The notes under the pieces were generated by a model. The model made no database searches, had not been told where the DNA came from, and worked only from the letters and a program-made list of their open reading frames with translations. DNA of 64,000 bases from Candidatus Ozemibacter sibiricus. Lineage in GTDB: Bacteria > Muiribacteriota > Ozemobacteria > Ozemobacterales > Ozemobacteraceae. Shown one piece after another: positions 24,055 to 44,639 of this stretch (the stretch's first letter is position 1; every line of letters begins with the position of its first letter). The stretch lies in NCBI GenBank assembly GCA_003327425.1, contig QOQW01000014.1, forward strand, positions 62,001 through 126,000, in the 5' to 3' direction. The translations under genes were made by a program, and so were the position numbers.

Positions 24055-24609
24055 ATGACCCTCGGTTCGCACCTGCCCGATGCCGAACTGGTCGTTCGTG
24101 TGCAGAACGGCGAGCGGCAGTGGTTCGACACGCTGGTCGACCGCCACTTCCCGCTGCTGGTCGGGTTGCTGCGGGTGCGGGGCGCGCCGCCGGCGGTGGC
24201 CGAGGATGTGGCGCAGGAAGCCTTCCTGAAGGCGTTTCTCAACATCCGGCAGTTCGATCCCAAGAACAAGTTTTTCAACTTCGTGGCGACCATCGCCAAA
24301 AATGCCCTGATCGATCACGTGCGGCGCCGGCGGATCGAAGAGCGCGTGCTGCTGGCCATTCCGCCCGCCGAACTGCCCGACCCCGAATCCGAAGCGGTCA
24401 AACGGGTGGCCATGCAGGATTTCCTGGCTACCCTGAACGAGGAGACGAGGTTCCTCATCGAGGCCCGCGTGTTCAAGGGGTTGTCGTTCGCCGAGCTGGC
24501 CGAACTGACCGGCCAGACCGAGAACGCGCTGCGGGTCAAGCTCCATCGGGCCCTGGCGAAGCTGAAAGGGCCTGCGGCCAAGGAGGCGGATCATGAGCCA
24601 GTCGGGTGA
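24055..24609 (+). CDS. ECF-family RNA polymerase sigma factor
   Basis: This is a 184-residue protein. Region 2 runs from about 9 to 85, with DVAQEAFLKAFLNI and FVATIAKNALIDHVRRRR (the -10 recognition helix). Region 4 runs from about 120 to 172, with LNEETRFLIEARVFKGLSF and TENALRVKLHRALAKL as the helix-turn-helix. No region 3 is present, as in ECF (group IV) factors. AGGAG lies at 24046-24050. The stop overlaps the downstream anti-sigma gene by 17 bases, the classic sigma/anti-sigma arrangement. Two large phosphatase genes follow in the same direction, which suggests a joint regulon or operon. Confidence 0.92.
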   Translation: MTLGSHLPDAELVVRVQNGERQWFDTLVDRHFPLLVGLLRVRGAPPAVAEDVAQEAFLKAFLNIRQFDPKNKFFNFVATIAKNALIDHVRRRRIEERVLLAIPPAELPDPESEAVKRVAMQDFLATLNEETRFLIEARVFKGLSFAELAELTGQTENALRVKLHRALAKLKGPAAKEADHEPVG

Positions 24610-25204
24610 GTGCGAGCGCATCCAGGACGCCTTGATCGACGGGCAGGGCGCCGGGCCGGCGGTCCGGCAGCACCTGGCCGGCTGCTCGGTCTGCCGAGAG
24701 TTCCAGCGCCGGCTGGGCGATCTGCAGGGGCTGGGTTCCCTCTACCGGCCCGAGGCGTTCGCGGCCGGGGCCGCGCGAATCAAGAACCTGATCCATCAGA
24801 CCCCCTTCCCGGGGGAAGGGAGCTCGGGAGCCAGTCCCAGTGCGGGGTCGGCCGCATCCGGTGCCAGCGCCGGCTCGGCCGCCGCGGCGGGGGCAGGGGC
24901 TGCCGGCGGCCTGGGGTGGCTGGGCAGCCTGAGCGGCACCGCCGTGGCGGTGATGGTCGCGGCCGCCCTGGCCATCGGCGGCTGGTGGGCGAGCCGGCCG
25001 CGAGAGCGCCCAGGCTCCGAGCCTTGGCCGGCGGTCAGTTCTCCGGTCGGTGCCACAGGAAGCGGGGCCAATTCCGCTCTGACCGCCTCTCCCACGATGC
25101 TTGCCTCGCCGTCGGGGGCGATCGCCTCCTTCCTCGTTCCCGCGCCGGCATCGGTAAAGGTGGAAGCGCCCGGCCCGGGCGCCGACGTCGACGCCGATCG
25201 TTGA
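24593..25204 (+). CDS. Zinc-finger (zf-HC2) transmembrane anti-sigma factor
   Basis: This is a 203-residue protein. The N-terminal CERIQDALIDG...HLAGCSVC is the H-x3-C-x2-C anti-sigma zinc-finger (zf-HC2) pattern, which binds and inhibits ECF sigma factors. A Gly/Ala/Ser-rich linker (80-110) leads to one membrane helix (about 115-133, GTAVAVMVAAALAIGGWW), followed by a ~70-residue low-complexity periplasmic tail. The start codon overlaps the sigma gene. The short extracytoplasmic part has no recognisable sensor. After the stop, 391 bases precede the next gene and contain one copy of a dispersed repeat. Confidence 0.85.
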   Translation: MSQSGECERIQDALIDGQGAGPAVRQHLAGCSVCREFQRRLGDLQGLGSLYRPEAFAAGAARIKNLIHQTPFPGEGSSGASPSAGSAASGASAGSAAAAGAGAAGGLGWLGSLSGTAVAVMVAAALAIGGWWASRPRERPGSEPWPAVSSPVGATGSGANSALTASPTMLASPSGAIASFLVPAPASVKVEAPGPGADVDADR

Positions 25205-25595: not shown

Positions 25596-28487
25596 GTGAT
25601 CCAGGATTGCCCGGCCCTGCCTGCTGTACCGCCGCCGTTGCCACCTGTCGGAACCGGCCCGGCCGGGTTTTCCCCGCTTGAGCGGAGGATCCTGGCCTTT
25701 CTGCTGGCCATGCCGTTCCTCCTGGTGGCCCTCGGCCTGCATTTCCTGGAACGGGAGCGGGCCGCAGCCCAGCTGGTCGAGGACGCCCGCCGGCTCGAAT
25801 ACCTGCTGGCCGAGGCCGAGCCGGGGAGCGACCCGACCATCGAGGTCACCCGGTTCCTGCAGGCAGTGGAGCAGCGGGTGTTCGCCGCCTCGGCGCCAGT
25901 CGAGGTCTGGGCCCAGGTCAGCGGTGAGATCCAGGAGCGGTTTCCCGGTCGAGTCACGTGGCTGCTGCTGGATGGTCGCGGCGAGGTGGCGACGGGGGAA
26001 GGCCCGGACGGGCGGCCGGTGCCGCGCGCCTTGCTGCGGCGGTTTTTCGCCGCCGGTCGGGCGGTGGTGGCCGGCGGGGAGTTCGCCGCCGGGGAGCGCT
26101 CGTTCATCCGCAGCTTCCTGGGGCCGTTCGCCCGGACCGATCGACGGGTCTTCCGGCAGGTGCAGCTGGCGCAGCCCGCTCCCCGGGAGCGGTATGTCTA
26201 CCTGTCGCAGCCCACGGCCCGAGGGATGTTCTTCGTGTTCATCGATACTCCCGATTCCCTGCAGGAAGCATGCGTGCAGGACCGGATCGCGAGGTTGCAC
26301 CGACGGTATCCCGGCGTGCGGCTCGTTCTCCTGCGGGCGGATCGCGCCACCATTCAGGGGATGGGCCGGCTGGGATTCTCTCCCAAGGCCAGCCGGCGAG
26401 TGTGGGCGGCCCTGACGGCGGCACCCACCGAGGTGCTCCGGCTGCCGCGCAGTCTGGTGGCCCGGCGGGCCATCGGCCCCGAACTATGGGTGGTCGGCCG
26501 TCAACGACGGCCTGGCGTGGCCGATCCGCCGCTGCCCTGGCTGATCGGGTTGGCGGGCCTGCTGGCCGGGATGCTTCCCCTCGGGTGGTCGTCGCGGTTC
26601 GCCCTCCTGGAAAGGTCGGTGCGGACCAGCCTGGTAGCCGCTTTCCTCTATGCGGTGGCGGTGCCTTCGCTCATTCTGGCGCTGGCAGTGCGGGTCTTCC
26701 TGGCCGAACAGCGGGCGGCGCTCGAAGATCGCGTCCATCGAGAAGCGGAAAAGGCGCTCGTGACCTGGGACCAGCAGATGCTGGCCGACCATCATCGCCT
26801 GCGGCGGAGGCTCGAACGACTGGCGATCCGGTTGGGGTTCGCCAGGCATCCGCCGCTGGAGGCCTTTCGGCGCGAGTGGCCGTCGCTACGCCGGCTGGGC
26901 ATGGATTCCTGCCTGGTGTTCGATCGGGCCGGTCGAGTGGTGTTCGAGGAGGAGGGCCGCGGCGGGCAGCGCAACCGCCTCAGCGGCGGCCGCGGGGCCG
27001 ACCGGCTGGCCCGCGCCTATCTGCGGTTCTACGGGTCGCGCTCGACGGCGGCCAGCGGGGCCGATGACAGCGAGCCGCTCGGCGAGGTCGAAGCCCTGTC
27101 GAGCGGGCTTTTGGACAAACCGGTGGCGCTGGGGTTCCTCGAAGCCGATGACCAGCGGAGCGTCATCGCCCTGCTGCCGTTGCTCGACGCCGCCTGGCAG
27201 GCTTGGTATGTCGCCTTCATCCGCTGGTCGCGGGACCGCTTCGAGGAATTGTACCTGCGACAGGAGCTGCGGCCGCGGCGGCGCGGGTCGACCGCGCTGC
27301 GGGTGCAGGCCTTCCATGTGCTGGACCCGACTCGCCGTCTGCCGGCGTCGGCGGTGGTGCCGGGGGCCTCGGCGGTGCTGGCCAGGCTGGCCGAGGGGCA
27401 GAGTCTGGTGCGTTCGCGGGTCGTGCGCGGCGGGGAAGGCTTCCTGCTGACCGGGCTGCGAGGCGTCAACATCACCTGCTTCTCGCTGGTCGCCGCGACC
27501 TCGGATCGGTCGATCCGGGCCGTCCTGGATGAACTGAGAGCGCGCTTCCTGGGGGCGGTGCTGGTGCTGGTGCTGATCAGTCTGGCCACCAGCCTGTCGT
27601 TGGCCAGGTCGTTCCTCCGTCCGGTCGGGCGGTTGACCGAGGGGCTGCAGGCCATCCGGGAGCGTCGATTCGAGCACCGGATCGGCATCGCCGCGGCCGA
27701 TGAGTTCGGCGGTCTGGCCCGCCTTTTCGATTCGATGATGGAAAGCCTGGCCGACCTCGAGGTCGCGCGGACGATCCAGGAGCAGTTCTTCCCACCGGCG
27801 CCGCTGCGCTGCGGAAGGTGGGAGATCGCCGGCGTCTGCCGCACCGCCAGCCGAGTCGGCGGCGATGTCTTCGATCACTTCGCTCTAGCCGATGACCGGG
27901 CGTTCCTGTTCATCGGCGATGTGACGGGGCACGGCATCGGAGCCGCCCTGGTCACCGCCCTGGCCAAGGCGACGGTGCGGCATCCGGCGACGATGGGGCG
28001 GCCCGAAGCGGTGATCGCCGCCCTGCGCGAGGTGATGCGGGCGACCGCCAGGGTTCGGCAGTTGATGACGTGCCAGGCCGCCGTGTTGGATGCGACGACG
28101 GCCACCCTGGCTATCGCGGGGGCGGGGCATCCCTGGCCGATGCTGTGGCGGCGGGGGCAGGCGCCTCGACTGCTGGAGGTGCACGGCAAGATCGTCGGGG
28201 CGCGGTTCGCGGCGGTCGAACCCGCGACTCGACTGGCCCTGGAGGCGGGGGATGTCGTGGTGTTCTATTCTGATGGGGTCATCGAGGCGATCGAAGCGAA
28301 GACGGGTCGGCCGCTCGGGGTGGCGGGCCTGCAGCGGCACCTGCCCGATCTGGCCGGGCCGACGGCCGGCGCGACGGCGGCCCGCCTCGTCGATTGGGTA
28401 CGAGTCTGCAGCGGTCGGGACATTCCCGAGGATGATCTGACGGTTCTGGTCATCCAGGGCGTGGCGAGCCCGGAGGAGCTGCGATGA
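25596..28487 (+). CDS. Membrane-bound SpoIIE/RsbU-type PP2C phosphatase 2
   Basis: This 963-residue protein has the same plan as phosphatase 1: a helix at about 28-48, a first extracytoplasmic segment, and central helices at about 315-338 and 345-370. A second segment follows, then a helix at about 651-672, HAMP (about 672-722) and SpoIIE (about 730-958). Metal motifs: GGDVFDH (Asp about 757), GDVTGHG (Asp about 775), YSDGVIEA and DDLTVLVIQ. GGDVFDH differs slightly from the usual GGDYFDY. The GTG start has GGGAAGGG four bases upstream. The stop overlaps the next phosphatase start by ATGA, so the two are translated together. It lies 391 bases after the ECF sigma/anti-sigma pair. Confidence 0.86.
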   Translation: MIQDCPALPAVPPPLPPVGTGPAGFSPLERRILAFLLAMPFLLVALGLHFLERERAAAQLVEDARRLEYLLAEAEPGSDPTIEVTRFLQAVEQRVFAASAPVEVWAQVSGEIQERFPGRVTWLLLDGRGEVATGEGPDGRPVPRALLRRFFAAGRAVVAGGEFAAGERSFIRSFLGPFARTDRRVFRQVQLAQPAPRERYVYLSQPTARGMFFVFIDTPDSLQEACVQDRIARLHRRYPGVRLVLLRADRATIQGMGRLGFSPKASRRVWAALTAAPTEVLRLPRSLVARRAIGPELWVVGRQRRPGVADPPLPWLIGLAGLLAGMLPLGWSSRFALLERSVRTSLVAAFLYAVAVPSLILALAVRVFLAEQRAALEDRVHREAEKALVTWDQQMLADHHRLRRRLERLAIRLGFARHPPLEAFRREWPSLRRLGMDSCLVFDRAGRVVFEEEGRGGQRNRLSGGRGADRLARAYLRFYGSRSTAASGADDSEPLGEVEALSSGLLDKPVALGFLEADDQRSVIALLPLLDAAWQAWYVAFIRWSRDRFEELYLRQELRPRRRGSTALRVQAFHVLDPTRRLPASAVVPGASAVLARLAEGQSLVRSRVVRGGEGFLLTGLRGVNITCFSLVAATSDRSIRAVLDELRARFLGAVLVLVLISLATSLSLARSFLRPVGRLTEGLQAIRERRFEHRIGIAAADEFGGLARLFDSMMESLADLEVARTIQEQFFPPAPLRCGRWEIAGVCRTASRVGGDVFDHFALADDRAFLFIGDVTGHGIGAALVTALAKATVRHPATMGRPEAVIAALREVMRATARVRQLMTCQAAVLDATTATLAIAGAGHPWPMLWRRGQAPRLLEVHGKIVGARFAAVEPATRLALEAGDVVVFYSDGVIEAIEAKTGRPLGVAGLQRHLPDLAGPTAGATAARLVDWVRVCSGRDIPEDDLTVLVIQGVASPEELR

Positions 28488-31400
28488 ACGGCCGGTCGCC
28501 GCGCCTTGCCGCCCCTGCCCTGCCCCTCGACCTGCTGCGCTGGCTCGGGGTCGTCGCCGTCTTCGTGGCGCTGCCGCTGGTTCTGTTGGTGACGGGGTTG
28601 GAGCGGGCGATCGAGGAGGAGTTCCGGCCGGTGCTGGCGCGCCGGACCGCCGATCTGGAAGGGTGGCTGGACCAGTTCCGGCATACGCCCTATCCCGAAA
28701 TGGGTTTGGAGCACTGGCTGGGAGCCCTGGAAAACCGGGTGGACACGGTGGCCGGGCCCTGGCTGCCGATGCTGCGGCAAGCGCTGGGTATGGGTCTGCC
28801 GGGCCTGCCGGGCTCGACGCTGTTCGATCTGCTCGAACCCGACCTCGTGTGTGAACCGCTCTTCCTCGCGTTGTGCGAGGTGTGGCTGCCCGATCTGCAG
28901 CGCACCTACCCGGGCGCCTTCGAGTTCGTGGTGTTCGACCATCGCCGTCGGCTGGTCGAGCGCCTCTCGACCCCCGAGTTGATCGCCGGCCGGCAGGCCG
29001 ACTGGGAAGCCTTCTGGCAACGGCGCTTCCTCTGGCGAGAACGGAAGGCAGGGGCGCTGGCCGACGAGATCGAGCGGTGGCGAGCCCTGCTCGGCCCGCT
29101 GGTCAGCGACCATCCCGACCAGTTGTTCCGGCTGGCCACCGGTGGCCGGTTCCAGGTCGGATTCCACCCCCGGCGACAACTGCTGGTGCTGCCGTATCCC
29201 CGGGCGCGGCGGCCGCTGGTCGGAGCGTTCCTGTCAGTGACGCCCGACTGGGCGGCGATCGGCCCGTGCCTGGGAGTTCTGGCCGGGTTCACCCACCTGG
29301 AGGGAGGAGATTGGGGCCTGATCGATCTGCGGTGGCCAGAGCACGAGTGGGAAAAAGGGTTCGGTCGGCCTCCGCCCGGCCTGGCTACGGCGGTCATCGC
29401 CCTGGGCCGTGCCGAGCGGCAGGCGCTGCTGGTGGAAGACCGGTGGTGGGCCCAGCGGATCCTGACCCCCCACCATCGCCTGCTGGTCACCATTCCTGAT
29501 CCGGTCGCGGCGTGGCGGCGGCAAGAGCGCTATCGACTCCGATGGATCGCGGTCGGACTGGGTCTGCTGATGGCAGGCGGGTGTTTCCCCTTCTTGGTGG
29601 GCAGGCCGCCGCGCGCGCTGTCGCTGCGGTGGAAGCTCGTCCTGCTGTTCCTCTATGCGGCAGGCGTGCCGCTGGCGCTGCTCGCTTCCGCCACCGGCAG
29701 CCTGTTGCAGGAGCAACGGGCCGTGCGGATCCGCGACCGGCACGATCGGCAGGAACGGCGACTGGCCGCTCTGGATCGTCATTTCCTCGAGTTCTTCGCG
29801 GCCAGATCGCGCGGTCTGCGGCGGGGGTTGGCGGGGCCCGTGCCGGCCGACTGGTCGATCGACCATCCTGGTCTGCGTCAGCATCTGCTCGAGTTGCACC
29901 AGCAGTTCCGGCCCGACCTGTGCCTGGTCTTCGACGAGCAGGGGCGCGTTCGTGCGGTGGCCCAGCCGGGGTGGGAATCGGTCAATCAAAGCATGGTGGA
30001 TGGCATGAGGGCGGCCATGGCGCCCCTGATGGCTCGGGCCATCGCCGACGAGAACGGGCAGGAGACCGACGTCGCCGGCACGGTCAAGGATCAACTGGTC
30101 AAGAGTTCGGCCGAGAGCCTCGGGATCGATATGGAACGGGTGGTGGCCGTGATGCGGCGGCGGCTGGACCGCTTGAGCGAGCAGACGTTGCTCAGTCCGG
30201 CCATGGGGGGATGTTTCCGGTGGCGGGCGGCCGATGGGCGGGTGCGGTTCCTGGTGATGATGGCCTGGATGCAAGCCGGCCAGGAGCCGTTCTACCTGCG
30301 GGAAGCCATTCCGGCGTGCCAGCGGCGGTTCCCTGACACCGTTTTCCAGATCTCGCCCGGAACCGCCGACCAGGCCCGGCTGGACGATCGGTTCCGCTGG
30401 CGGACCGATCCGCTGTCGACGGGGCTGCTGACCCAGGCCGCCCCCCTGCGCCTGGAGTTCGAGGAAGGAGGGCGGGTCTGGCTGTTGACCGGGATCAAAG
30501 GCCAGTTTCTGCGGCAGACCGCCCTGTTCGCCATTTCTTCCGATCAAGAGATCGTGGCGGCGGGCCGGGCCCTGATCTGGCGGGTGGGCATCTCAGGGGG
30601 CATCATTCTCGGGCTGGTGCTGACGCTCGGGTTCTTGGTCGCACGTCGGCTGCTGCTGCCCCTGGGCGACCTCGGGCGAGGCCTGGCGGCGGTGCAGGCC
30701 CGGAAATTCAGAACCTATCTGCCGGTGCGCTCGCGCGACGAGCTGGGCCGGATGATCGAAACCTTCAATGGCATGCTGGAAAGCCTCGAGGGGCTCGAGG
30801 TGGGCCGGGCGATCCAGGAGGCGCTGTTCCCGGCGCGACCGCTGGTGGCCGAGGGGTGGAGCCTGTTCGGCGCGACCGTCCCGGCCAGCCGGGTCGGTGG
30901 GGATTATTTCGACTATTTCCCGCTGCCCGATGGGCGCTGGTTCCTGACCATCGGCGATGTGTCGGGGCACGGCGTATCGGCGGCCCTGGTGGTCGGCCTG
31001 GCCAAGGGCGTGGTGGCCCATCCTGACACCCCGCGGGCCGAGCCCGAACAGGTGCTGGATCTGCTCAACCAGGTCATCCAGGGCACCCTGGCCCGCCGCA
31101 AGACGATGACCTGCCAGGTCGGGGTGTTCGATCCCCGGACCGGCCGGCTGGTGCTCAGCAATGCCGGGCATTGCCGGCCTTTCCTGGTGGGGGAAAGCGG
31201 GGTCGAAGAGCTGGTCATGGGGGGACGAGTGATCGGGTTCAAAACGGGGAAGGGGCAGATGTTCCCTGTCTATGAACGTTCGCTGACGGCGGGCGAGATG
31301 GTCGTCTTCTACTCAGACGGGCTGGTCGAGGCGCCGGTGGCGGGCAGCGCCGAGGCGGTGGGCCGGGACGACGCGGGCCAGGCAGAATCGGTGACGGACC

Positions 31401-31630
31401 AGGCTGGCTCCACTGGGGAGGCCACGAGGGAAGTCGTGGTCGGGTATTCTCGGCTCGTGACCGCTCTGTCCGCGCTGCGGCAGGCCGAGGCAGCAGCGAC
31501 GGCCGGGGCGATCCGGGCGTGGTTGACCGAGCTGACCGGCGGCGCCGAGCTGCCCGATGACGTGACGATCATGGTCTTGCAGGGCCCCGCGGCAGGGCGG
31601 GCAGCCCAGGCTTCGGGCGCGGCCGGGTGA
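28484..31630 (+). CDS. Membrane-bound SpoIIE/RsbU-type PP2C phosphatase 3
   Basis: This 1048-residue paralogue of phosphatase 2 is coupled to it by an ATGA overlap. Helices lie at about 18-38, 352-370, 382-405 and 700-722, with extracytoplasmic segments between them. HAMP lies at about 722-772 and SpoIIE at about 780-1040. Motifs GGDYFDY (Asp about 807), GDVSGHG (Asp about 825), YSDGLVEAP and PDDVTIMVLQ are complete. A 40-residue low-complexity insert sits in the C-terminal lobe after YSDGLVEA. Two phosphatases in tandem may integrate two signals on one target. The gene ends 22 bases before the convergent HicB gene. Confidence 0.87.
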   Translation: MNGRSPRLAAPALPLDLLRWLGVVAVFVALPLVLLVTGLERAIEEEFRPVLARRTADLEGWLDQFRHTPYPEMGLEHWLGALENRVDTVAGPWLPMLRQALGMGLPGLPGSTLFDLLEPDLVCEPLFLALCEVWLPDLQRTYPGAFEFVVFDHRRRLVERLSTPELIAGRQADWEAFWQRRFLWRERKAGALADEIERWRALLGPLVSDHPDQLFRLATGGRFQVGFHPRRQLLVLPYPRARRPLVGAFLSVTPDWAAIGPCLGVLAGFTHLEGGDWGLIDLRWPEHEWEKGFGRPPPGLATAVIALGRAERQALLVEDRWWAQRILTPHHRLLVTIPDPVAAWRRQERYRLRWIAVGLGLLMAGGCFPFLVGRPPRALSLRWKLVLLFLYAAGVPLALLASATGSLLQEQRAVRIRDRHDRQERRLAALDRHFLEFFAARSRGLRRGLAGPVPADWSIDHPGLRQHLLELHQQFRPDLCLVFDEQGRVRAVAQPGWESVNQSMVDGMRAAMAPLMARAIADENGQETDVAGTVKDQLVKSSAESLGIDMERVVAVMRRRLDRLSEQTLLSPAMGGCFRWRAADGRVRFLVMMAWMQAGQEPFYLREAIPACQRRFPDTVFQISPGTADQARLDDRFRWRTDPLSTGLLTQAAPLRLEFEEGGRVWLLTGIKGQFLRQTALFAISSDQEIVAAGRALIWRVGISGGIILGLVLTLGFLVARRLLLPLGDLGRGLAAVQARKFRTYLPVRSRDELGRMIETFNGMLESLEGLEVGRAIQEALFPARPLVAEGWSLFGATVPASRVGGDYFDYFPLPDGRWFLTIGDVSGHGVSAALVVGLAKGVVAHPDTPRAEPEQVLDLLNQVIQGTLARRKTMTCQVGVFDPRTGRLVLSNAGHCRPFLVGESGVEELVMGGRVIGFKTGKGQMFPVYERSLTAGEMVVFYSDGLVEAPVAGSAEAVGRDDAGQAESVTDQAGSTGEATREVVVGYSRLVTALSALRQAEAAATAGAIRAWLTELTGGAELPDDVTIMVLQGPAAGRAAQASGAAG

Positions 31631-32051: not shown

Positions 32052-32302
32052 GGTTTCTTCTCCTTCTTGCGCACGGCATCAACCAGGGCGACGAATTTCT
32101 TGATGTAGATCGGCTTGATGGGCCGGCGGAAAGGGACGGTGACGTCTTCTTCCAGGCCAGGGAAAGAGAAAACGAAATGGCTGCCACCATGATGGCGAAC
32201 CTCGATGGCGGCACGCCTCGCGATGGTCAGAAGATTGTCCATGGTCCAGTTGTCGTGAGGATTCGCCCGCATGCGGCGGAGGAGCTTTTCTGCGGAACCC
32301 AT
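32048..32302 (-). CDS. hicA: HicA-family toxin (mRNA interferase)
   Basis: This is an 84-residue double-stranded-RNA-binding-fold toxin. The motif GGSHFVF carries the catalytic His (about 42), and VPFRRPIKPIYIKKFV matches the C-terminal family segment. HicA cleaves mRNA and stalls growth. The length and N-terminus (MGSAEKLLRRMRANP) fit the family, so the ATG at 32302 is right. Even so, no Shine-Dalgarno site precedes it and the -10 box ends only five bases upstream, which points to a leaderless transcript. Confidence 0.9.
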   Translation of the reverse strand: MGSAEKLLRRMRANPHDNWTMDNLLTIARRAAIEVRHHGGSHFVFSFPGLEEDVTVPFRRPIKPIYIKKFVALVDAVRKKEKKP

Positions 32303-33973: not shown

Positions 33974-34336
33974 TCAGCTGCGGAGCAGGTCGAGGGCGGC
34001 GGCTTCGCTGGGCGCGTGCGGCACCTGGGTCAGGATCTCCATGAAGGTCAGCAGCTCGATCTGGCTCTTGTCGAGGCCGAAGAACACCAGACCGCCGGCG
34101 AAATCGCCGGTCACCCGTTCCATGAGTTCGATCAGCCAGGCCACCCCCGGGCTGGCGATGGCCGGGCAGCGGCTGATGCCCACCGCCAGCCGGATGTGCC
34201 CGCCGCGCAGGAGCGGTTCGGCGACGCGCATCAGTTCTTCCCCGGCTTCCTGGCCCAGGTAGCCCTGGAACCGGATCACGGCGGTATCGGGGGCGACGAT
34301 CGCGGTTTCGATCGAGTGGCGGTTGGCGGACCCCAT
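33974..34336 (-). CDS. STAS-domain protein, probable anti-anti-sigma factor
   Basis: This is a 120-residue single-domain protein with the SpoIIAA/RsbV pattern: a strand TAVIRFQGYL, helix GEELMRVAEPLLRGG, strand RLAVGISRCP, then AIASPGVAWLIELME. The Ser in ASPG (about 62) is where SpoIIAA is phosphorylated (DSSG). The end LTFMEILTQVPHAPSEAAAL is typical of the family. Such proteins are phosphorylated by an anti-sigma kinase and reactivated by SpoIIE/RsbU phosphatases, of which the window has four. No matching HATPase kinase is seen. The ATG has no ribosome site; a TG-C-TACCAT extended -10 lies 10 bases upstream. Confidence 0.78.
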   Translation of the reverse strand: MGSANRHSIETAIVAPDTAVIRFQGYLGQEAGEELMRVAEPLLRGGHIRLAVGISRCPAIASPGVAWLIELMERVTGDFAGGLVFFGLDKSQIELLTFMEILTQVPHAPSEAAALDLLRS

Positions 34337-34598: not shown

Positions 34599-37163
34599 GT
34601 GCCAGCCAGCGGGGAACAGTTTCTGCAACGAGACCTGGAGGCCCCTTTCCGCTCGTTCCGCTTGATGGCGATCGAGGAGATCATCCGACGCGGCGAGCCC
34701 GAGCCCTGGCTGGCCATCCTCGAAGCTCGGCTGGCGCGCGAAGACGACGAAGAATGCCGGATCGCCCTGGAGCATGCCCTCGGCATTCTCCGCGATCGCC
34801 GCGCGGCCGCCGAGGGCGTGGCGGGTGCGGCGGCCGTCGCGGCGTTCCTCCAATCCTTTCGGGGGGCCGAGGCGGCGCGGCAGGCCAGCCTGCTGGCGTC
34901 AGCGCCACCTTCTCTGCAGCGAGCGCTGGTGCCGCATCTGGCCGAGCTGGTCGCCGCCGCGGCCCATCCGTTGGTGCAGGCCCGGGTGCTGCGCACCTGG
35001 ACGGGCGACTGGCCGGCCGCCGAACTGCCGCTGGCGGTGTCGCTGCTGCGCGCCGACAGCCTCGCCGTGCGGCTGGCGGCCCTGGAACTGCTGGCCCGGC
35101 ACGCCCCCGACCGGTTGTGGCAGAGTCTGCCGCGACTGCTGGTGCATCCCGAGCCGCGGCTGCGGGGACTGGCCATTCGCGGCCTGCTGCGGCTCGATCC
35201 GGCCGAGGCCTTCGACCATCTGGCCGCCCTGTTCCGCAGTGCCGATCCGCAGCATCGACGAGCCGCCCTGCTGGCCAGCGTCCATTTTCCCTTCGACCAG
35301 GTCAAACCGCTGTTCCTCGAGCTGCTGGCCCGCGAGACCGATTCCGACCTGCTCGAGCGCGTTCTGCTGATCGTCCGCAACAACCCCGATCCCGACCTGC
35401 CGTTCCAGATCCTCGAACTGGCCGATGAAGATGAATCCCGGCGGATCCGGTACCTGCAGCCGCTGGTGCTCGATCTCACCCAGGCGCTCGCCGCCTCCGG
35501 GCTGCTGCCGGGCGACGAAGCCGATTTCCGTCGCCGCTTGCAGGAGCATGCCGAGGATCGAGCGGCGCGGCGCTGGGTGCATCGCTTCCTGACCACCCTC
35601 GACGATCGCGAGCCCGAAGAGAACGAGGTGCTGATCGAGGCCGCCGCCCGCTCGCCAGTGGTGGCTCGCCACCTCGCCGCCGCCCCCGCCTGGGACCTGC
35701 CGCCCGCGGCCCGCACCTGGCTCGCGCATTGGCTGAACCCAGACCGGCCGGGAAGCCCCGCCCCCGGCGGCCAGGCAACGCCTACCACCGCCCCGCCCTT
35801 GACCGGTGAGCCGCCCGTGACCGCTGCCGCGACGACCGTCGCCGTTTCGCCACTGGCCGCTCCGCTGCCGGTCGATCGTCCTGCATCGGAGCCTGCCGCA
35901 TCGGCCGCTTCGCCAGAAACGGCGGCCGGCCTTCGCTCGGCCGGGGCCGCGCCTGGAGCGAGGCCCGCGACCGACCCTGCGATCTCGGGCCTGATCCGCT
36001 GGCTGGCCGCCCTCGATGCCGACGGGGTCGCGGCTCGCGTCGACGATCTGCGCCGTCGTCTGCAGGCGGCCGACACCCCGCCCGCCGTGCTGGCGGTCGC
36101 CTTGCGCACCCTGCGGCGGACCGGCTCGACCGGTTTCCTGGCCGAAGCCGAGGCCCTGCTGGGGCATGCCGACCCCCGGGTGGTGGGGGCGGCGCTCGAA
36201 TACCTCGGGGCCTTCAGCCCTGAGCGGCTGGCCCTGTCGCTGGGCCGCTTCCTCAAAGCGAAGCGGCCCGCCGTGCGCCGGGCGGCGCTCAAGGCCCTGC
36301 GTGCCCTCGACCAGACGCAGGCGCTGTCGGCGCTGCGGATGATGATCGAAGGGACGGCCGCCCAGCAGAAGATGGGTCTGGAGTGCCTGATCCATTTCGA
36401 GTTCGCGGTGGTGCGCGACCTTGTCGGCACGTTGATCCGACGCGGAGCCACCGACGAGATCCGGCGTGGGGCCTGGCTGCTGCTCGCCAACAACCCCGGT
36501 CCCGAGAACTTCCCGCTGCTGTTCGCCCTGCGACAGGAATTCTCAGCCGGAGGGGCCGATCTCACGCAGGCCGCCCAGGCCGAGCGGCTGCTGGCTGAGA
36601 CGTTCGCCTATCTCGACCGGGCGGGGCGCCGGCCGGCGCCCAGCTTCGAGGCACTGCTGGCCCGCCTGCAGCAGGAATGGGAAGCGGCGGAGGCCCGCCG
36701 GCGGGCCGCTCCCAAGCCGTACAGCGCCGCCCGTCTGCACGGGCCGGGCGGCCGCCGCTGGTGGGAACCCTGGCTCGACCTGCTGCGCGGCGATCTCGAT
36801 CCCGAGACCCGACAGCAGCTCGGCCAGAGCTGGCGGCGGCCGGCCCTGGTCGGGCTGGTCATGCTCGGCCTGGCGTGGTTCGGTCTGCTGTCATCGGTGG
36901 AACGCCCGGCCGGCCTGCCTCCCCAAGGCGGCCCGCTGCCGGCGGTGCCGACCCGCCTGCAAGGCGTGGTCGTCGAATCGGCCGCCGACTGGCTGCGGAT
37001 CGCCACTCCCGCCGGGGAAGAGCATCTGGTCATGGCGCCGCCCGGGACCTGGTTTTCCCCGCAACTCCAACAGCGGTCGGTCGCTCTGACCATCTTGCCG
37101 TTCCGCCGCGAGGGGGAACGCGTGGTGCGTAGCACCTTCGTCCGATGGGAGGCTCCCCCATGA
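34599..37163 (+). CDS. HEAT-repeat membrane protein heading a pseudopilin operon
   Basis: This is an 854-residue protein. Residues 1-380 and 470-690 are repeated paired helices with many Leu, Ala and Arg residues (for example ALLASVHFPFDQVKPL and RRAALKALRALDQTQAL), typical of HEAT/PBS-lyase-like repeats. A Pro/Thr/Ala linker (385-470) separates the two blocks. A membrane helix lies at about 748-766, followed by a ~85-residue domain outside the membrane. The GTG start has AAGGAG eight bases upstream. The stop overlaps the first pseudopilin gene by ATGA, and all four genes are coupled this way. A scaffold role for a pilus-like or type II secretion-like assembly is inferred from position only. 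Confidence 0.7.
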   Translation: MPASGEQFLQRDLEAPFRSFRLMAIEEIIRRGEPEPWLAILEARLAREDDEECRIALEHALGILRDRRAAAEGVAGAAAVAAFLQSFRGAEAARQASLLASAPPSLQRALVPHLAELVAAAAHPLVQARVLRTWTGDWPAAELPLAVSLLRADSLAVRLAALELLARHAPDRLWQSLPRLLVHPEPRLRGLAIRGLLRLDPAEAFDHLAALFRSADPQHRRAALLASVHFPFDQVKPLFLELLARETDSDLLERVLLIVRNNPDPDLPFQILELADEDESRRIRYLQPLVLDLTQALAASGLLPGDEADFRRRLQEHAEDRAARRWVHRFLTTLDDREPEENEVLIEAAARSPVVARHLAAAPAWDLPPAARTWLAHWLNPDRPGSPAPGGQATPTTAPPLTGEPPVTAAATTVAVSPLAAPLPVDRPASEPAASAASPETAAGLRSAGAAPGARPATDPAISGLIRWLAALDADGVAARVDDLRRRLQAADTPPAVLAVALRTLRRTGSTGFLAEAEALLGHADPRVVGAALEYLGAFSPERLALSLGRFLKAKRPAVRRAALKALRALDQTQALSALRMMIEGTAAQQKMGLECLIHFEFAVVRDLVGTLIRRGATDEIRRGAWLLLANNPGPENFPLLFALRQEFSAGGADLTQAAQAERLLAETFAYLDRAGRRPAPSFEALLARLQQEWEAAEARRRAAPKPYSAARLHGPGGRRWWEPWLDLLRGDLDPETRQQLGQSWRRPALVGLVMLGLAWFGLLSSVERPAGLPPQGGPLPAVPTRLQGVVVESAADWLRIATPAGEEHLVMAPPGTWFSPQLQQRSVALTILPFRREGERVVRSTFVRWEAPP

Positions 37164-38545
37164 GGTCCCGGCGTCGGGGGTTCGCCCTGCTCATCCTGCT
37201 GGCGCTGGCCGTTCTGGCGGTGGGCTTCGCCTTGATCTACCACCAATGGTCGCGGCATGGCCAGCAGGTGTCCTTCCGGATCGAGCAGGCCGAGACGATG
37301 CGTCTGCTGGCCGAATCGGCCATGGAAGAGGCCTTCGCCTGGTTGCATCGCGAGTGTTCCGACTACCGCAGCGCGACGGCCGCCTGGGTGCGGGAACCCT
37401 CGGCGCCGCCGCTCGCGATTCCCCTGCCGGGGGTCGGGCGCTGGCTGGCGACGAGCCTGCGGGGCGGGCCAACGGTCGAACTGACGGCCGAAGCCCGCCA
37501 CGTCGATCGCCGTACCGAAGACCACGACGGGGCACCGTTCTTCCGCCCCGACGATGGGTCGCCGGGCGAAGCCGTGGGCACGATCGAATGCCGGGTGACG
37601 GCCACCCTCTGGCAGCGCGACCTGCTCACGCGCACGCGGCTCGCCACCGGCCGGCTGCTCCGGCACCATGACGTCTGGGTGGTCAGCATGGTCACGCCGC
37701 GCCTGCCGGATCGCCCGCGCGCCGCCTATGCCCACAATTTCGTGCTCGATTACGTGCTGCTGGTGCGTGACGGGCTCGCCGAGTTCCGCGAGAGCGAGGG
37801 CCGGTCGCTGAACCCGGCCGCCCTCCCCTTCACGATCGATCAAGATGATCTGCCGAGCGAGCGGCGGGGCAGGATCTCCTTCGGTGGCACCGACAGTACG
37901 AAGCCGCCGATCGCGCTGGGCGACCAGGATCCGTTGCCGCGCTTCTTCAACCGGGCCGGGCTGGTCATCGACGGAGCGACGACTGGACCGGCCGGGTTCC
38001 GGCCCTGGGGCCATTTCAGCCTGTGGCATCGCCGGCAGGTCCCTCCCGATGCAGCGATGCTCGAGGGCATCGGCCTGCTCGACCGCCGGCGTCGAGTGCT
38101 GCGGCTGAACGGGATCGTCCATCTGGCGGGCGAACTGGTCGTGGGCGATCCCGAGGCCCCCTGGACGATCGAAGGGCAGGGGGTGCTGATCGCGCCGGCC
38201 ATCACCGTGCGCGGCAGCCTGATCAAAGCCCGGCCCGATGACCTGTGCGTGCTGTTCGCCCGCCGTGGGCCGATCACGGTCGAGACCGAGCGCCGGGTCG
38301 AAGCTGCCCTCGTCGCCGTCAACGACGCCAAGACCGGTTGCGTGCTGGCCCGCCGCGCCCTCGATCTGCGAGGAGCGCTCATCGTCGACCGGTTGGCCAC
38401 CGAGCGTTGGGCCAGCGGGGTGGCTCACCGGCTGGCGTATGATCCGGCCCTGACCTCGCCCGACCGGGCCAGCTATGTCGTCAACCTGTCGCGCTGGATC
38501 AGCTTCCAACGATGGGTGCTGGATGCCCCCGAGGCGGCTCCATGA
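37160..38545 (+). CDS. GspK/PilX-like minor pseudopilin
   Basis: This is a 461-residue protein that begins MRSRRRGFALLILLALAVLAVGF. That is a short basic leader and a Gly-Phe cleavage site, then a hydrophobic helix without the Glu at position +5. The missing Glu5, the AESAMEEAFAWLH segment after the helix and the large C-terminal domain are features of the tip pseudopilin GspK and of PilX-type proteins. The prepilin peptidase would cleave after Gly 7. The ATG overlaps the HEAT gene stop. It probably caps a short pseudopilus with the two following products. Confidence 0.72.
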   Translation: MRSRRRGFALLILLALAVLAVGFALIYHQWSRHGQQVSFRIEQAETMRLLAESAMEEAFAWLHRECSDYRSATAAWVREPSAPPLAIPLPGVGRWLATSLRGGPTVELTAEARHVDRRTEDHDGAPFFRPDDGSPGEAVGTIECRVTATLWQRDLLTRTRLATGRLLRHHDVWVVSMVTPRLPDRPRAAYAHNFVLDYVLLVRDGLAEFRESEGRSLNPAALPFTIDQDDLPSERRGRISFGGTDSTKPPIALGDQDPLPRFFNRAGLVIDGATTGPAGFRPWGHFSLWHRRQVPPDAAMLEGIGLLDRRRRVLRLNGIVHLAGELVVGDPEAPWTIEGQGVLIAPAITVRGSLIKARPDDLCVLFARRGPITVETERRVEAALVAVNDAKTGCVLARRALDLRGALIVDRLATERWASGVAHRLAYDPALTSPDRASYVVNLSRWISFQRWVLDAPEAAP

Positions 38546-39225
38546 GGAAGGAGTCTCTGGCCACCGCCCTGCCCCCCATGCGCCTGGGTGGTCGGCCCTG
38601 CCGCGCTTGCGCTGACCAGGAATGGCAAGGCGTGCGCCGGGTCGGGGCAGAAGGCCAGACAGCGTCGGGCGCGGGCCATGGCCGAGCATCGGCATTCGTC
38701 GGGAAGGTGGGTCTCGCCTGGCGGCTCTGGCCGGCTGGCCGCGCGCGGGGTGGCAAGCGGGGGGGCGCGCCCGGGCACGCCCGCCGCGGCGGGTTCACCC
38801 TGGTCGAAGTGCTGATCTCGATGATGATCCTGTCGCTGGTGCTGCTGGGGGCGCTCGTGATGGTGAGCCGTTCGCGCGTGGGGGCCATGGATGCCTGGTT
38901 CGAGTTCCTCGCCGTCCAATTGGCCCTCGAGCCCATCGAGGTCTTCCGGGGCTTCGGGGCGACCTGGGTCAAAGACTATCGCGCCCATCCGCTGCCTGAA
39001 TTTCCTCTGGGCGTCACCGCCATCGAGCCGAGGCGCGGCGCCCTCCATTGGCCGGCCGATGCCACGCTCTTCGAGCGCGAGATCACCCTGACGCCCGTCG
39101 AGGAGCCGGTGCCCGGAGTGCTGGTCGAAGTGCGGGTGCGCCCGCGCGGGGCCACGCGGGCCCAGGTCTGGCTGCGACGCGAGGAGGTGGTGATGAGCGC
39201 CCTGCTGGTGGAGCAACCGCGATGA
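38542..39225 (+). CDS. GspI/PilV-like minor pseudopilin with a very long leader
   Basis: This is a 227-residue protein if read from the coupled ATG. The type IV prepilin segment GGFTLVEVLISMMILSLVLL, with Glu at +5, stands at about 83-102. Prepilin leaders are normally 5-30 residues; here about 84 precede the cleavage site and are rich in Arg, Gly and Cys. A downstream in-frame GTG could be the actual start. The C-terminal part is small, as in GspI. Its coupling to GspK-like and GspJ-like genes matches the K-I-J tip complex of type II secretion, though gene order differs from the usual H-I-J-K. Confidence 0.68.
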   Translation: MRKESLATALPPMRLGGRPCRACADQEWQGVRRVGAEGQTASGAGHGRASAFVGKVGLAWRLWPAGRARGGKRGGAPGHARRGGFTLVEVLISMMILSLVLLGALVMVSRSRVGAMDAWFEFLAVQLALEPIEVFRGFGATWVKDYRAHPLPEFPLGVTAIEPRRGALHWPADATLFEREITLTPVEEPVPGVLVEVRVRPRGATRAQVWLRREEVVMSALLVEQPR

Positions 39226-40031
39226 GACGCGACCCCGCCGTGGCCTCGTCCATCCCTCGCTGGGCCTCCCGGTCGCGCCGGGGACGCCCGACCGACGGGT
39301 ATTCCCTCGTCGAGGTCCTGATCGCCGTGACCCTGGCCACCCTGCTGCTGGCGGTGGCGTGGCGGGTGCTGCGGGCCAGCCTCGACCATTCGCTGCTTGG
39401 CATTCAGCAGGTCGATCTGACCCTCGAGGCACGGCGGGTCATCCAGCAGATCCACCAGGATCTGAAAATGTCCTGCTTCGAGCGGGGGCCGGCGGGGTTC
39501 GCCCAGGAGTTCGCCCGTCTGGTGCAGGTGCGTCCAGGCTCCGGTCCCAACCCGCTCGAGGGCATGACCTGGTCGTTCCTGCGGTTTCCGCACGAGGGGG
39601 ACGTGGCCGACGTCTGCTCGACCGGCACGCGCGCCGGCTCGGCCCCGCGGTTCGCCGTGCGGGTCACCTATCGGCTGCAGGCCGATGCCGCGCGGCGCAG
39701 CCCCTTCTGGCAACTGGTCCGCGTCGAAGAACCGCCCGCGGGCTTGCCGGGGAGGCGGACCCGCACGCAGATACTCTCTTCCCAGGTGAATTTCCTGGCC
39801 ATCCGGCCAGTCGAGCTGGGAACCGAGGCCACCGGCCAACTGGCCTGCTTCCACGTCACGCTGCAGGTGGGGAAACCGGTGGCTGGCGCCGGCTCAGGGG
39901 CAGACGCCGGCCGCGGTTCCCAGATCGTCGACGTCTTCGACGTGGTCTATTCCGAATACTTCAACGCGATCCGGAACCATCCCGGCATGAACTTCGGCTG
40001 GTACGCCCCCATCGTCGGCCCTGCCAACTAG
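39222..40031 (+). CDS. GspJ/PilW-like minor pseudopilin
   Basis: This is a 269-residue protein. A leader of 26 basic residues ends in Gly, then YSLVEVLIAVTLATLLLAVAW carries the Glu at +5. The position +1 residue is Tyr instead of the usual Phe. ARRVIQQIHQDLKM after the helix is typical of GspJ/PilW proteins. The ATG overlaps the stop of the previous gene (ATGA). It is the last gene of the four-gene operon. No secretin, ATPase or major pseudopilin is visible nearby, so the apparatus must be encoded elsewhere. Confidence 0.75.
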   Translation: MRRDPAVASSIPRWASRSRRGRPTDGYSLVEVLIAVTLATLLLAVAWRVLRASLDHSLLGIQQVDLTLEARRVIQQIHQDLKMSCFERGPAGFAQEFARLVQVRPGSGPNPLEGMTWSFLRFPHEGDVADVCSTGTRAGSAPRFAVRVTYRLQADAARRSPFWQLVRVEEPPAGLPGRRTRTQILSSQVNFLAIRPVELGTEATGQLACFHVTLQVGKPVAGAGSGADAGRGSQIVDVFDVVYSEYFNAIRNHPGMNFGWYAPIVGPAN

Positions 40032-40449: not shown

Positions 40450-40743
<294 letters not shown>

Positions 40744-40744
<1 letters not shown>

Positions 40745-41100
40745 TGCTCCGGTTCAAAACCGACGAAAACCTTCCCCGCGAAGCCGCCGATCTCCTCCGC
40801 CGGTATGGGCATGAGGTCCAGACCGTTCACGAAGAAGGGTTGGCTGGAGCTTCTGACCGGGTGATAATGGCCGCCAGTTTGCGGGAAAAGCGGATTCTCC
40901 TGACTCTCGATACCGATGTTGCCGATTTGCGCCGGTATCGTCCCCAAGATGCCTGTGGCATTCTCGTCTTCCGACTGAAGAGACATGACAAGCCTGCGTT
41001 GTTGCTGGTTCTGGGAAAACTCATCGAGGTTCTGGCGCGGGAAGATCCGACCGGAAAGCTGTGGATCATCGATGAGCGAAAAATCCGCATCCGCGATTGA
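40744..41100 (+). CDS. DUF5615 (PIN-like) toxin
   Basis: This is a 118-residue protein with FKTDENLPREAADLLRRYGH at its start. The acidic pair D7/E8, the central D in ASDRVIMAASLREKR, and LLTLDTDVADL are the metal-site acidic positions of the DUF5615 PIN-like nuclease family. It is a predicted RNA-cleaving toxin neutralised by the upstream DUF433 protein. The length is usual for the family. No other gene is linked to the pair. Confidence 0.85.
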
Positions 41101-41502: not shown

Positions 41503-44445
41503 TCAGCGGCGGACGAGGATGAGCAGGGTCATGTCGTCGTTGGGGGGAATCCCCTGGCGCACCTCGTCGTGCCAGGCCATCAGAGCCTCCCAGGCGGCGC
41601 GCGGGTCGGGCCCGACCAGGCGGGCGGCCGCGGCCTGGAAGGGGGCGAAGCCCAGCACCCCGCCGGGAATGCGGGCTTCGACCAGCCCGTCGGTGAACAG
41701 CAGCCAGCGATGACCGGGGGCGAACGCGGCGATCAGCTCCTTCCCCTGCCATGAAGAGCTGATCCCCAGAGGCCTGGAAGGCAACGACACTTCCTCCCAG
41801 GCGCCCGGCCCGGTGATCCGCACCGCCGGGCACTGGCCGGCATTGGCGAAGCTGAGCCGATGGGTCCGCATGTCGAGGATCCCCACCGCGCAGGTCATCA
41901 TGGTACCCCGCCGCAAGGTGGCCCGCAGCACCTGATGGAGGATGGCCAGGAAGCCGGCCGCCGTCGTCTCGCGGGCGATCTCCCGCTCGACCAGCGCCTT
42001 GGCCATCGCCATGACCAGCGCCGCGCCCACGCCGTGCCCGGATACATCGCCGATCAGGAAGAACAGCCGGTCGTCGGGCAGCACCTTCAGATCGAAATAA
42101 TCGCCTGAGAGAGCGGTCAGGAACCGGCTGCCGCCGAAGACCCGATAATCGCCCCAGACGATCTCCTCGCGCGGCATCAGATTCTCCTGCACGAAGCGGC
42201 CGACCTCGAGGTCGGCCAGCCCCTCCATGACCTGATTGAAGGTGGCGGCCAGGCGCCCCAGCTCGTCGGGCGGGCCGACGGGCACCCGATGCCGGAAATC
42301 GCGCCGCTGGATGGCCTCCACCCCGCGCGAAACCTCGGCCACCGGCACCAGGACCCGCTCGGACAAATGGACGCCGAGGCCCAGGGCCAGCAGGGCGATG
42401 CCGGCCAGGAACACCCCCAATCCCAGCCTGAACTGGGACAGATCGCGCAGAATGTCGTCAGCGGCGCGCGCCCCCCACAGAATCAGCCCGTTCATCTCGC
42501 GGCCGGGGAATCCGACCAGCCAGTGCGAGGCCCCGCCGGCGCGCACCCGGAAGGAGGTGCTCTGGCGGGCGATCAGCAACGGGGCGAGCCGGTAGAGCAG
42601 GCGCTCGCTACGGGCCGCCTGGGGAGAGGACGCCGCGAGGAGCCGTCCCGTCGCGGTGGTCACCCACAACCGTGCGCCCAGCATCAGCCGTTGCTGCTCG
42701 AGCAGCCGCTTGCGCACGAACTGGGTATGCAGGCGCAACCGCTTCCAGCTCACGACGATCAGGCGGCGAGCGATGCCCTGCTGGTCTTTGATGGCGTGCA
42801 GGAACAGGTAGTTCTGATCGCCCGAGAGGTCGAAATAGACGATCTTGCCCAGATCGCGCAGGATCCCCTTCCAGCTCTCCTCATCGCCTCCGATGGCCGA
42901 CCAGACGATATCGGTCGTCTGGCCGGCGGCGGTCGGCGGTTCCTGATTGATGTCGCGCAGGGCCTTGGCCGAGAGGCTTCCCAGGTATCGGCGCTCGCTT
43001 TCGGTCGCTTCATCCCCCGGTGGAGGATGGGAATAGACGACCTGGCCCGCCTGATCGAACACGTAGACCTTGTCGGCCTCGAATTGCCGTCGGAACCGGC
43101 GGCCAGCGCGCTGGAGCGCGGGCGCCCGCTGTCGTCGCCAGCCGAACGCCCGGGCGATGCCCTCGCGCAGCCGGCCGTTCAGCAGGTGCAGGTCGCGCAG
43201 GAACTGCTGGTCGAACCCGCGCAGGGCCTCCTGCATCTCGGTTTCGGCGCGGGCCAGCAGGGCGCTTTCCTGGCGGGCCAGATAGTCGAGTCCCAGCAGC
43301 CAGACGGCCAGCAGGGGCAGACCGGCCATGAACAGGAACAGCAGGATCAGACGATGCCGGATCGACAGCGTGAACGGCCAGCCACGGCTGTATACCCTGA
43401 AACTGGCCACCATGAACAGGAACCCGAGCAGCACGCCGCCGAGCACGAGCCACCAGCGGGCGTGCTGGATGGCGGCCTGGCCGGGGGCCGGCCGCTGCAG
43501 CCACAGCAGCAGACCAGGCTGGATGCGGCGGAAGAGGACCAGACTGGCGACGCCGCAATACCGGGCCTGCCCGCTGCGTTCGAAGGCCAGCCGCGCGGCC
43601 TCCACCTCGGGGGGCAGGGGGCCGGTTTCGCCGGGGTCGAGGGTGCCGGCGCGCCAGCCGGTTGCCCCGTGTCGCCGGTTCCAACGATTTATCAGAACGT
43701 CGAGAGGGCGGCGGTCCCAGTCGGGACGCTGGTTGAGGTGGGCGAACAACGCCCCGTGGTCGGTCAGATGCACGAAGAAGAAGGTCTTTTCCTCGCCGAA
43801 CCGGACCTCGTCCATGAGGCTCGGTTGCGTTCGGCTCAGCGGAGCGAAGAACTCCTTGCGGGCCTGGGGACCGATGAACGGCCAGACCAGGGGCCGCCAG
43901 CGCTCCCGCAGGGGGAGGCGCAGCGGGTCGTGGCGCCACTCGGCGACGGCCACCTGATGCAGGGCCCGGATGATCCGCCGCGGCGCTTGCGGCGAGGAAC
44001 ACTCGGGAATCACGTCGCCATTCCGGTCGGTGACGTACCAGTGGATGAACCCAGGAAACGCTCGGTCGAGGAAGCGGCGCCAGCGTCGCAGCACGGCGAG
44101 GCGGCGCGTCGGTGACGCCGCGGCCTCGGCATGCGCCCGCTGCAGGACCCCATGGAAGAAACCGCGAGCATTGCCCCGGACCGCCAGGTCGGCGATCTGG
44201 ATCTCGAGTTGATTCATGGCGCGCTCGCGGGCCAGGGTCTCGCGGCGTGTCCATACGGTGCCTGCCCCGAAACAGAGCAGCAGGAACGGGAGGATGAAGA
44301 AAATGGCATTGGTGGCCAGCCACTTCCCCCACGGAAATTGGAAGAAACCGGCCGGGGGCGGAGCGCCGTCCTGGGTGTCGGGAAGCCATGGCCCGGCCTG
44401 CGGGAGGGAGTGGCGGTGTGCAGCGTCGATGGACGGGTGGTTCAT
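41503..44445 (-). CDS. Membrane-bound SpoIIE/RsbU-type PP2C phosphatase 4
   Basis: This 980-residue protein has the same architecture as the three others: a helix at about 42-64, central helices at about 330-380, a fourth near 680-702, HAMP, then SpoIIE from about 755 to the end. Motifs are SGDYFDL (Asp about 782, Gly replaced by Ser at the first position), IGDVSGHG, FTDGLVEAR and NDDMTLLILVRR. The start chosen is the ATG at 44445 with AAGG a few bases upstream; the ATG at 44457 and an earlier frame extension are alternatives. It is a single-gene unit, divergent from the 30-residue membrane peptide at 44640. Confidence 0.86.
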   Translation of the reverse strand: MNHPSIDAAHRHSLPQAGPWLPDTQDGAPPPAGFFQFPWGKWLATNAIFFILPFLLLCFGAGTVWTRRETLARERAMNQLEIQIADLAVRGNARGFFHGVLQRAHAEAAASPTRRLAVLRRWRRFLDRAFPGFIHWYVTDRNGDVIPECSSPQAPRRIIRALHQVAVAEWRHDPLRLPLRERWRPLVWPFIGPQARKEFFAPLSRTQPSLMDEVRFGEEKTFFFVHLTDHGALFAHLNQRPDWDRRPLDVLINRWNRRHGATGWRAGTLDPGETGPLPPEVEAARLAFERSGQARYCGVASLVLFRRIQPGLLLWLQRPAPGQAAIQHARWWLVLGGVLLGFLFMVASFRVYSRGWPFTLSIRHRLILLFLFMAGLPLLAVWLLGLDYLARQESALLARAETEMQEALRGFDQQFLRDLHLLNGRLREGIARAFGWRRQRAPALQRAGRRFRRQFEADKVYVFDQAGQVVYSHPPPGDEATESERRYLGSLSAKALRDINQEPPTAAGQTTDIVWSAIGGDEESWKGILRDLGKIVYFDLSGDQNYLFLHAIKDQQGIARRLIVVSWKRLRLHTQFVRKRLLEQQRLMLGARLWVTTATGRLLAASSPQAARSERLLYRLAPLLIARQSTSFRVRAGGASHWLVGFPGREMNGLILWGARAADDILRDLSQFRLGLGVFLAGIALLALGLGVHLSERVLVPVAEVSRGVEAIQRRDFRHRVPVGPPDELGRLAATFNQVMEGLADLEVGRFVQENLMPREEIVWGDYRVFGGSRFLTALSGDYFDLKVLPDDRLFFLIGDVSGHGVGAALVMAMAKALVEREIARETTAAGFLAILHQVLRATLRRGTMMTCAVGILDMRTHRLSFANAGQCPAVRITGPGAWEEVSLPSRPLGISSSWQGKELIAAFAPGHRWLLFTDGLVEARIPGGVLGFAPFQAAAARLVGPDPRAAWEALMAWHDEVRQGIPPNDDMTLLILVRR

Positions 44446-44639
44446 GATCCTTGCCATGGTAACATCAAGCGAGCGGCCGGCGGGATGGGCTCGAACCTGG
44501 CTGGTCGGCCGGTTGTTGTGGCCAACGGGCCGGTCATGCCGCGGGTTGCTTGGGTCATGTCGCACATCATTGTAACGTTTCCCTGGTGTCGTTCGTCTTC
44601 CTTATGACGGTGAAACATGACGGACCCAGGAGGTTGGAC

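Follow-up and report, generated by a model that had tools for sequence, protein, structure and literature searches.

A multi-copy module of Ozemobacteraceae in which a HEAT-repeat membrane protein gene accompanies minor-pilin and signalling genes

In the Kil (Tad) pilus of Myxococcus xanthus, several clusters each encode a minor-pilin complex that is proposed to form an exchangeable tip of one filament, and the tip proteins, which are of TadE/F/G type, carry variable domains (PMC12075869). In Nostoc punctiforme, the three-gene system hmpU-W constitutes an Rsb-like switch in the context of type IV pilus motility, and its output, the STAS protein HmpV, acts on an undefined downstream effector (PMC6495340). 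Here, we describe a locus in a 64,000-nucleotide stretch of Candidatus Ozemibacter sibiricus DNA (contig C2:62001-126000 of the source genome; referred to as the window), in which a gene for a large HEAT-repeat membrane protein heads an operon with three minor-pilin genes, named K, I and J. Together with genes for a STAS protein, SpoIIE/HAMP phosphatases and an extracytoplasmic-function (ECF) sigma factor, these genes make up a conserved multi-copy module of the Ozemobacteraceae, a family of uncultivated bacteria. We tentatively favour, at somewhat less than an even chance, a reading in which each copy is a family-specific cassette that encodes both a dedicated minor-pilin tip complex and the signalling unit controlling it, the HEAT protein serving as membrane adaptor to a SpoIIE/STAS switch. 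This adaptor reading is preferred because it uses all of the associations; it is based on gene order, protein architecture and one conserved serine.

The four-gene operon (34599-40031, forward strand; Table 1) was confirmed, with the HEAT gene followed by the K-, I- and J-like pilin genes. The overlaps measure 19 bp between HEAT and K and 4 bp at each of the ATGA junctions K/I and I/J, and the identical three overlaps were found in the ortholog of a sister species, which has 76-81% identity and comes from a Candidatus Ozemobacteraceae metagenome-assembled genome (MAG); another relative is named Candidatus Riflebacteria. The source genome is a Candidatus Riflebacteria/Ozemobacteraceae MAG of 5.68 Mb in 58 contigs; the named genomes are MAGs, mostly fragmented, and the gene calls come from a simple program based on codon usage. 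The original prediction from the window had listed four overlapping or ATGA-type junctions and deduced products made in a fixed ratio. The overlaps hold, but four genes give three junctions, and a fixed ratio is conjectural. As 49 of 162 co-oriented neighbour pairs overlap in the source genome, overlaps alone are weak evidence.

The names K, I and J are positional and rest on order, size and N-terminal motif. I and J each carry a prepilin motif with a hydrophobic helix, and K has an N-terminal pilin-like helix lacking Glu5. The proposed likeness to GspK, GspI and GspJ is therefore upheld for gene order, prepilin motifs and the missing Glu5, but not at the level of protein family models, since none of the three NCBIfam models was reached at its curated cut-off, and K and J gave no Gsp match at all. 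For I, the nearest NCBIfam models were PilV (3e-6) and GspI (0.003; 18.1 bits versus a cut-off of 44.35), both below cut-off and confined to the N-terminus, and the N_methyl match of J (3e-4) lies just under the Pfam cut-off, the motif being present in J relatives. Counted from the ATGA start, the I leader comprises 84 amino acids, compared with about 43 at the same ATGA junction of the sister species. The search for an identity of K in Pfam, NCBIfam and PDB sequences gave no match. Window K is short of its sister ortholog (694 amino acids) by a clean middle segment of about 228 amino acids, which is largely kept in paralogues; the gap may be a real deletion or an assembly effect.

Counting in the source genome revealed about 16 HEAT relatives, 65 prepilin-motif gene clusters, 21 STAS matches and 60 SpoIIE domains. 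The K family of the window has six members in this genome, five of which have a HEAT gene no more than 5 kb away (0.2 expected, P about 5e-7); among the 60 pilin clusters that contain no K-family member, one does (2.1 expected), and 6 of 16 HEAT genes are near STAS (0.7 expected, P 4e-5), with expectations derived analytically from genome coverage and search coordinates instead of by full permutation. HEAT is specific to one K family and not to pilin clusters generally. Accidental or hitch-hiking linkage is conceivable in a genome so rich in paralogues, where HEAT and SpoIIE genes indeed lie at chance distance, but we reject it as very improbable: the proximity of HEAT to K and to STAS exceeds chance by orders of magnitude in probability, the gene order is conserved across genera, and HEAT and K co-diverge. 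As a separate observation, the pilin clusters and the SpoIIE phosphatase domains both represent a very large expansion for 5.7 Mb.

HEAT genes beside gspK-like genes, which the original prediction had suggested searching for in relatives, recur in most genera of the family, and the two genes co-diverge across 24 family members. Both families were found in nearly all Ozemobacteraceae genomes searched; elsewhere in the phylum, neither scored comparably, with the C-terminal region of K giving weak matches. In total, 77 distinct HEAT loci from 23 genomes were analysed, and because they were picked by similarity to the window HEAT protein, the locus fractions are not an unbiased census. K was present within 9 kb in 39 loci, STAS within 4 kb in 34 (usually as the next gene), SpoIIE within 6 kb in 31 and sigma within 5 kb in 28. 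The 48 loci with both flanks of at least 5 kb contained K in 27, STAS in 29, SpoIIE in 26, sigma in 12 and none of these in eight cases. Many of the HEAT paralogues without K adjoin STAS, SpoIIE or sigma genes instead.

Comparison of the HEAT and K distance matrices for 35 pairs gave a Mantel r of 0.67, which was reached in none of 5000 shuffles of partners within genomes only (mean 0.36, maximum 0.60), and HEAT and K had the same nearest relative in 23 of the 35 pairs. Taken genome by genome, the correlation was strong for the 6 pairs of G007 and weak in G014, and the source genome showed none. Judged by this divergence, the HEAT-K modules are inherited as units. Fusions between the module families were looked for, and none turned up. 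K and I can overlap in 33 of 40 cases and I and J in 30 of 34, mostly as ATGA; HEAT stands immediately upstream of K in 8 of the 77 loci and overlaps it in four (window, sister, L011 and L106). Tight coupling is therefore the rule for the K-I-J trio and occasional for HEAT. In some cassettes, lipoprotein-like or secreted proteins with a HEXXH metallopeptidase-like region adjoin K or sigma genes (L013 10780-12159 (+); L133 11974-13215 (-)). A K-family trio directly behind clpS-clpA, with no HEAT gene, was seen in two genomes of the genus (L126, source genome C29, 4904 onward; L132, G001:C6).

Outside the window, a second operon (C2:6403-13722, +) encodes a divergent HEAT protein of 968 amino acids (HEAT2), followed by K2 with 907 amino acids and two pilins. 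The order HEAT2-K2-pilin-pilin was found in at least nine loci, namely in the source genome (G000), G001, G002, G004, G007, G009, G010, G012 and G017, with a HEAT2-K2 gap of -4 to 113 bp in eight of the nine and 404 bp in G001; at the G007 locus, one of the two pilins was called. Behind its membrane helix, HEAT2 shows weak TPR-like matches. The conserved order provides independent support for a HEAT protein coupled to a K-type trio. Furthermore, a HEAT-PilT-type ATPase fusion of full or near-full length occurs in most Ozemobacteraceae genomes searched, including the source genome (C39), and in G011 the fusion gene lies divergently beside a K-I-J trio.

These operons and fusions, along with the HEAT-K-I-J coupling in the window, the sister, L011 and L106, could also be explained if HEAT served a type II secretion system (T2SS)-like pseudopilus, as a structural part of it or as its substrate adaptor, and were unrelated to signalling; the absence of STAS and sigma genes from within the HEAT2-K2 operon would agree with this. 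We regard such an assembly scaffold as unlikely, given that 34 of the 77 loci have a STAS gene adjacent to HEAT or in its vicinity, that HEAT genes also occur without pilins, that the GspK, GspI and GspJ models are not reached and that the examined cassettes showed no recognisable T2SS core genes. The original prediction of an assembly scaffold or substrate adapter for pseudopilins thus proved half right. The K genes near HEAT, their recurrence and co-divergence, the HEAT2-K2 operon and the protein architecture agree with it, but it missed the signalling role, HEAT being linked to STAS, SpoIIE/HAMP and ECF sigma genes as well, and roughly half of the paralogues sampled having no K gene nearby.

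The window HEAT protein is, as predicted, a large HEAT-repeat protein with a single membrane helix, which lies towards the C-terminus, and it scored 66.6 bits for the HEAT_2 family PF13646 against a cut-off of 27.7. An AlphaFold2 model calculated from four sequences (mean predicted local distance difference test score (pLDDT) 70, with mostly 75-90 in the solenoids and less than 50 in the linkers and around the helix) comprises two helical-repeat solenoids (amino acids 5-379 and 474-703) connected by a disordered Ala/Pro-rich linker (384-479), followed by the membrane helix (749-764) and a beta-domain (785-850). The description of the latter as OB-like rests on the strand pattern, the Foldseek search having been run with the full HEAT model. 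As fold relatives, Foldseek returned generic solenoids only, at template-modelling (TM) scores of about 0.1-0.3, and these were discarded; the best matches, the PP2A A subunit, karyopherins and condensin subunits, share the alpha-solenoid with the window protein in a generic manner. To our knowledge, none of these has a membrane helix plus beta-domain tail. In the HEAT family, the membrane helix with a tail of about 84-108 amino acids was present in 39 of 39 K-linked paralogues and in most others. The charge pattern gave no decision on topology; a C-out orientation with a periplasmic beta-domain is inferred because the HEAT and STAS partners are cytosolic in character. As modelled, the arrangement of two solenoids, membrane helix and C-terminal beta-domain fits an adaptor role.

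The window STAS protein gave no Pfam match of its own, but matched a leave-one-out profile of six relatives at 1.5e-23; most STAS relatives match PF01740 (one weakly), and the family profile matched SpoIIAA structures at 1.5e-12. An invariant serine, Ser62 in the window (IASPG), aligns with Ser58, the serine that is phosphorylated in SpoIIAA. Two features of Rsb/Spo systems are thus found, a STAS protein with the conserved phospho-serine and a PP2C (SpoIIE/RsbU) phosphatase nearby (the SpoIIE/HAMP gene convergent to J), which is kept in the sister. In the sister, the ECF sigma and anti-sigma genes come first, followed by the divergent STAS gene, then HEAT, K, I and J and finally the convergent SpoIIE gene. 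In the window, STAS is set apart from the sigma pair by an intervening block that carries two further SpoIIE genes, HicAB and an M23 peptidase gene, the link of these two SpoIIE genes to the module being uncertain. Within the ECF pair, the sigma factor is clear and the anti-sigma factor shows an H..C..C-like motif without a Pfam match, its equivalent in L010 matching zf-HC2 below cut-off (0.002). The inserted block also holds a HicB antitoxin gene (31653-32302 (-)) with a HicA-like partner (below cut-off).

The main rival of the adaptor reading is transcriptional control, whereby HEAT, STAS, SpoIIE and ECF sigma/anti-sigma would form a sensory unit and K-I-J would merely be its regulon, with no contact to HEAT. 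This explanation, which we hold possible but rather doubtful, draws on sigma directly adjoining HEAT in 17 loci (7 of which would permit an ATGA overlap) and being the most conserved gene of the sister region, on STAS being HEAT's immediate neighbour in most loci that have it, and on the roughly half of HEAT loci that have no K nearby. It does not account for the lack of a sigma gene between or beside the partners in several of the HEAT-K pairs and in almost every HEAT2-K2 operon observed, nor for the restriction of HEAT to one K family, and a sensor has no need of translational overlap with pilins.

Several findings weigh against the adaptor reading. The original prediction had named HEAT genes elsewhere without pseudopilin genes as evidence to the contrary, and this is partly the case: no K gene lies within 9 kb in 38 of the 77 HEAT paralogues sampled, the other 39 being K-linked. 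Conversely, some K-family trios have no HEAT neighbour, in part on short contigs and in part in other settings, and direct HEAT-K overlap is rare, two of its four loci being the window operon and the sister ortholog. Co-divergence of linked genes can come from co-inheritance alone, and the association found here is at the gene level only. In L011, the cassette (12096-15273 (+)) keeps HEAT-K-I-J ATGA coupling while its I and J have no prepilin motif; perhaps it is a repurposed or decaying copy. The AlphaFold2 model of sister K, calculated from two sequences only, was too poor for a fold search (mean pLDDT 38), which precludes a comparison of the K fold with that of GspK and its inserted alpha domain. 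In the source genome, SpoIIE genes are so abundant that their proximity to HEAT genes does not exceed chance, and no RsbW/SpoIIAB-type kinase gene was found beside the HEAT modules, the seven strong HATPase_c_2 matches of the genome all lying elsewhere.

Under the adaptor reading, the shared pilus machine of the cell would build a type IV-type filament that K, I and J prime or cap, and the filament tip would accordingly differ between cassettes. HEAT would be an inner-membrane protein whose solenoids face the cytoplasm and whose beta-domain lies in the periplasm. The beta-domain might contact the tip pilins and the solenoids might bind STAS, and perhaps also the assembly motor. The state of STAS would be set by a SpoIIE phosphatase sensing something outside, and the SpoIIE/STAS switch would decide when a given tip is made or assembled. 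More speculatively, and in our view rather unlikely as a whole, HEAT solenoid membrane proteins could be a new class of type IV-filament factor, each selecting, docking or licensing one cognate tip on the shared machine under a SpoIIE/STAS switch, with HEAT repeats also in a PilT-type motor. How a bacterium with dozens of minor-pilin sets picks its filament tip is an open question, which the cassettes make testable, as each appears to carry a candidate selector (HEAT) and a switch (STAS, SpoIIE, ECF sigma). If true, this would assign a function to a large bacterial HEAT family and a possible STAS target other than an anti-sigma kinase.

Table 1. Features of the window and HEAT genes at further loci (window positions unless a locus is given).
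Feature	Position	Strand	Remarks
ECF sigma factor	24055..24609	+	93% identity to the sister gene; most conserved gene of the sister region
Probable anti-sigma factor	24593..25204	+	HLAGCSVC zinc-finger-like motif; overlaps sigma gene; no Pfam match
Two further SpoIIE/HAMP phosphatases	25596..31630	+	Ends overlap; block absent here in sister
STAS (anti-anti-sigma/SpoIIAA-like) protein	33974..34336	-	120 aa; divergent from HEAT
HEAT-repeat membrane protein	34599..37163	+	854 aa; GTG start; AAGGAG ribosome site; PF13646 2.5e-18
C-terminal beta-domain of HEAT protein	36951..37148	+	Strand pattern looks OB-like by eye; periplasmic by prediction
K-like (GspK/PilX-type) large minor pilin	37145..38545	+	466 aa; overlaps HEAT by 19 bp; N-terminus RRGFALLILLALAVLA
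I-like minor pilin	38542..39225	+	RRGGFTLVEVLISMMILSL; ATGA overlap with K; N_methyl 2.5e-8; later GTG start at 38707 possible
J-like minor pilin	39222..40031	+	TDGYSLVEVLIAVTLATLLLA; ATGA overlap with I; prepilin motif
SpoIIE/HAMP membrane phosphatase	41503..44565	-	Convergent to J; same position in sister, 75% identity
HEAT-PilT fusions	L135 4466-7198; L140 8558-11449	-; +	Partial-length relatives in family f7
439-aa HEAT protein in pilB-pilM-pilN-pilO operon, source genome	L024 9386-10705	-	Inside the operon

Just 3' of the J gene, the window contains a DUF433/DUF5615 (PIN-like) pair (40469-41100 (+)), which is probably a toxin-antitoxin system.

A literature search for 'HEAT repeat' together with 'pseudopilin' found no paper in the searched library, outside of which most subscription papers lie; for HEAT repeat and type IV pili, none was relevant by title and abstract, and no prior description was found in the literature on Riflebacteria and pili or on Ozemobacter. 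Among known systems, the trio resembles the GspK-GspI-GspJ tip of the T2SS and minor pilins of PilX/PilV type in combining a large pilin without Glu5 with two smaller prepilin-motif proteins; it differs from the T2SS tip in that the Gsp models are not reached and no solved structure is related to the K proteins by sequence. The window STAS protein is like SpoIIAA/RsbV by its significant profile match and the aligned phospho-serine, whereas its genomic partner is a HEAT protein and not a SpoIIAB/RsbW kinase operon. With the Kil pilus, the module shares the multiple minor-pilin tip clusters, tip exchange in Ozemobacteraceae being conjectural; HEAT, STAS and SpoIIE partners are not noted for Kil in the available part of the report (PMC12075869). 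In the accessible text on Hmp, no HEAT protein is noted, whereas in the present module the STAS gene accompanies those for a HEAT membrane protein and pilins, with no kinase gene adjacent; what both have in common is a STAS/Rsb-like switch in a pilus context (PMC6495340).

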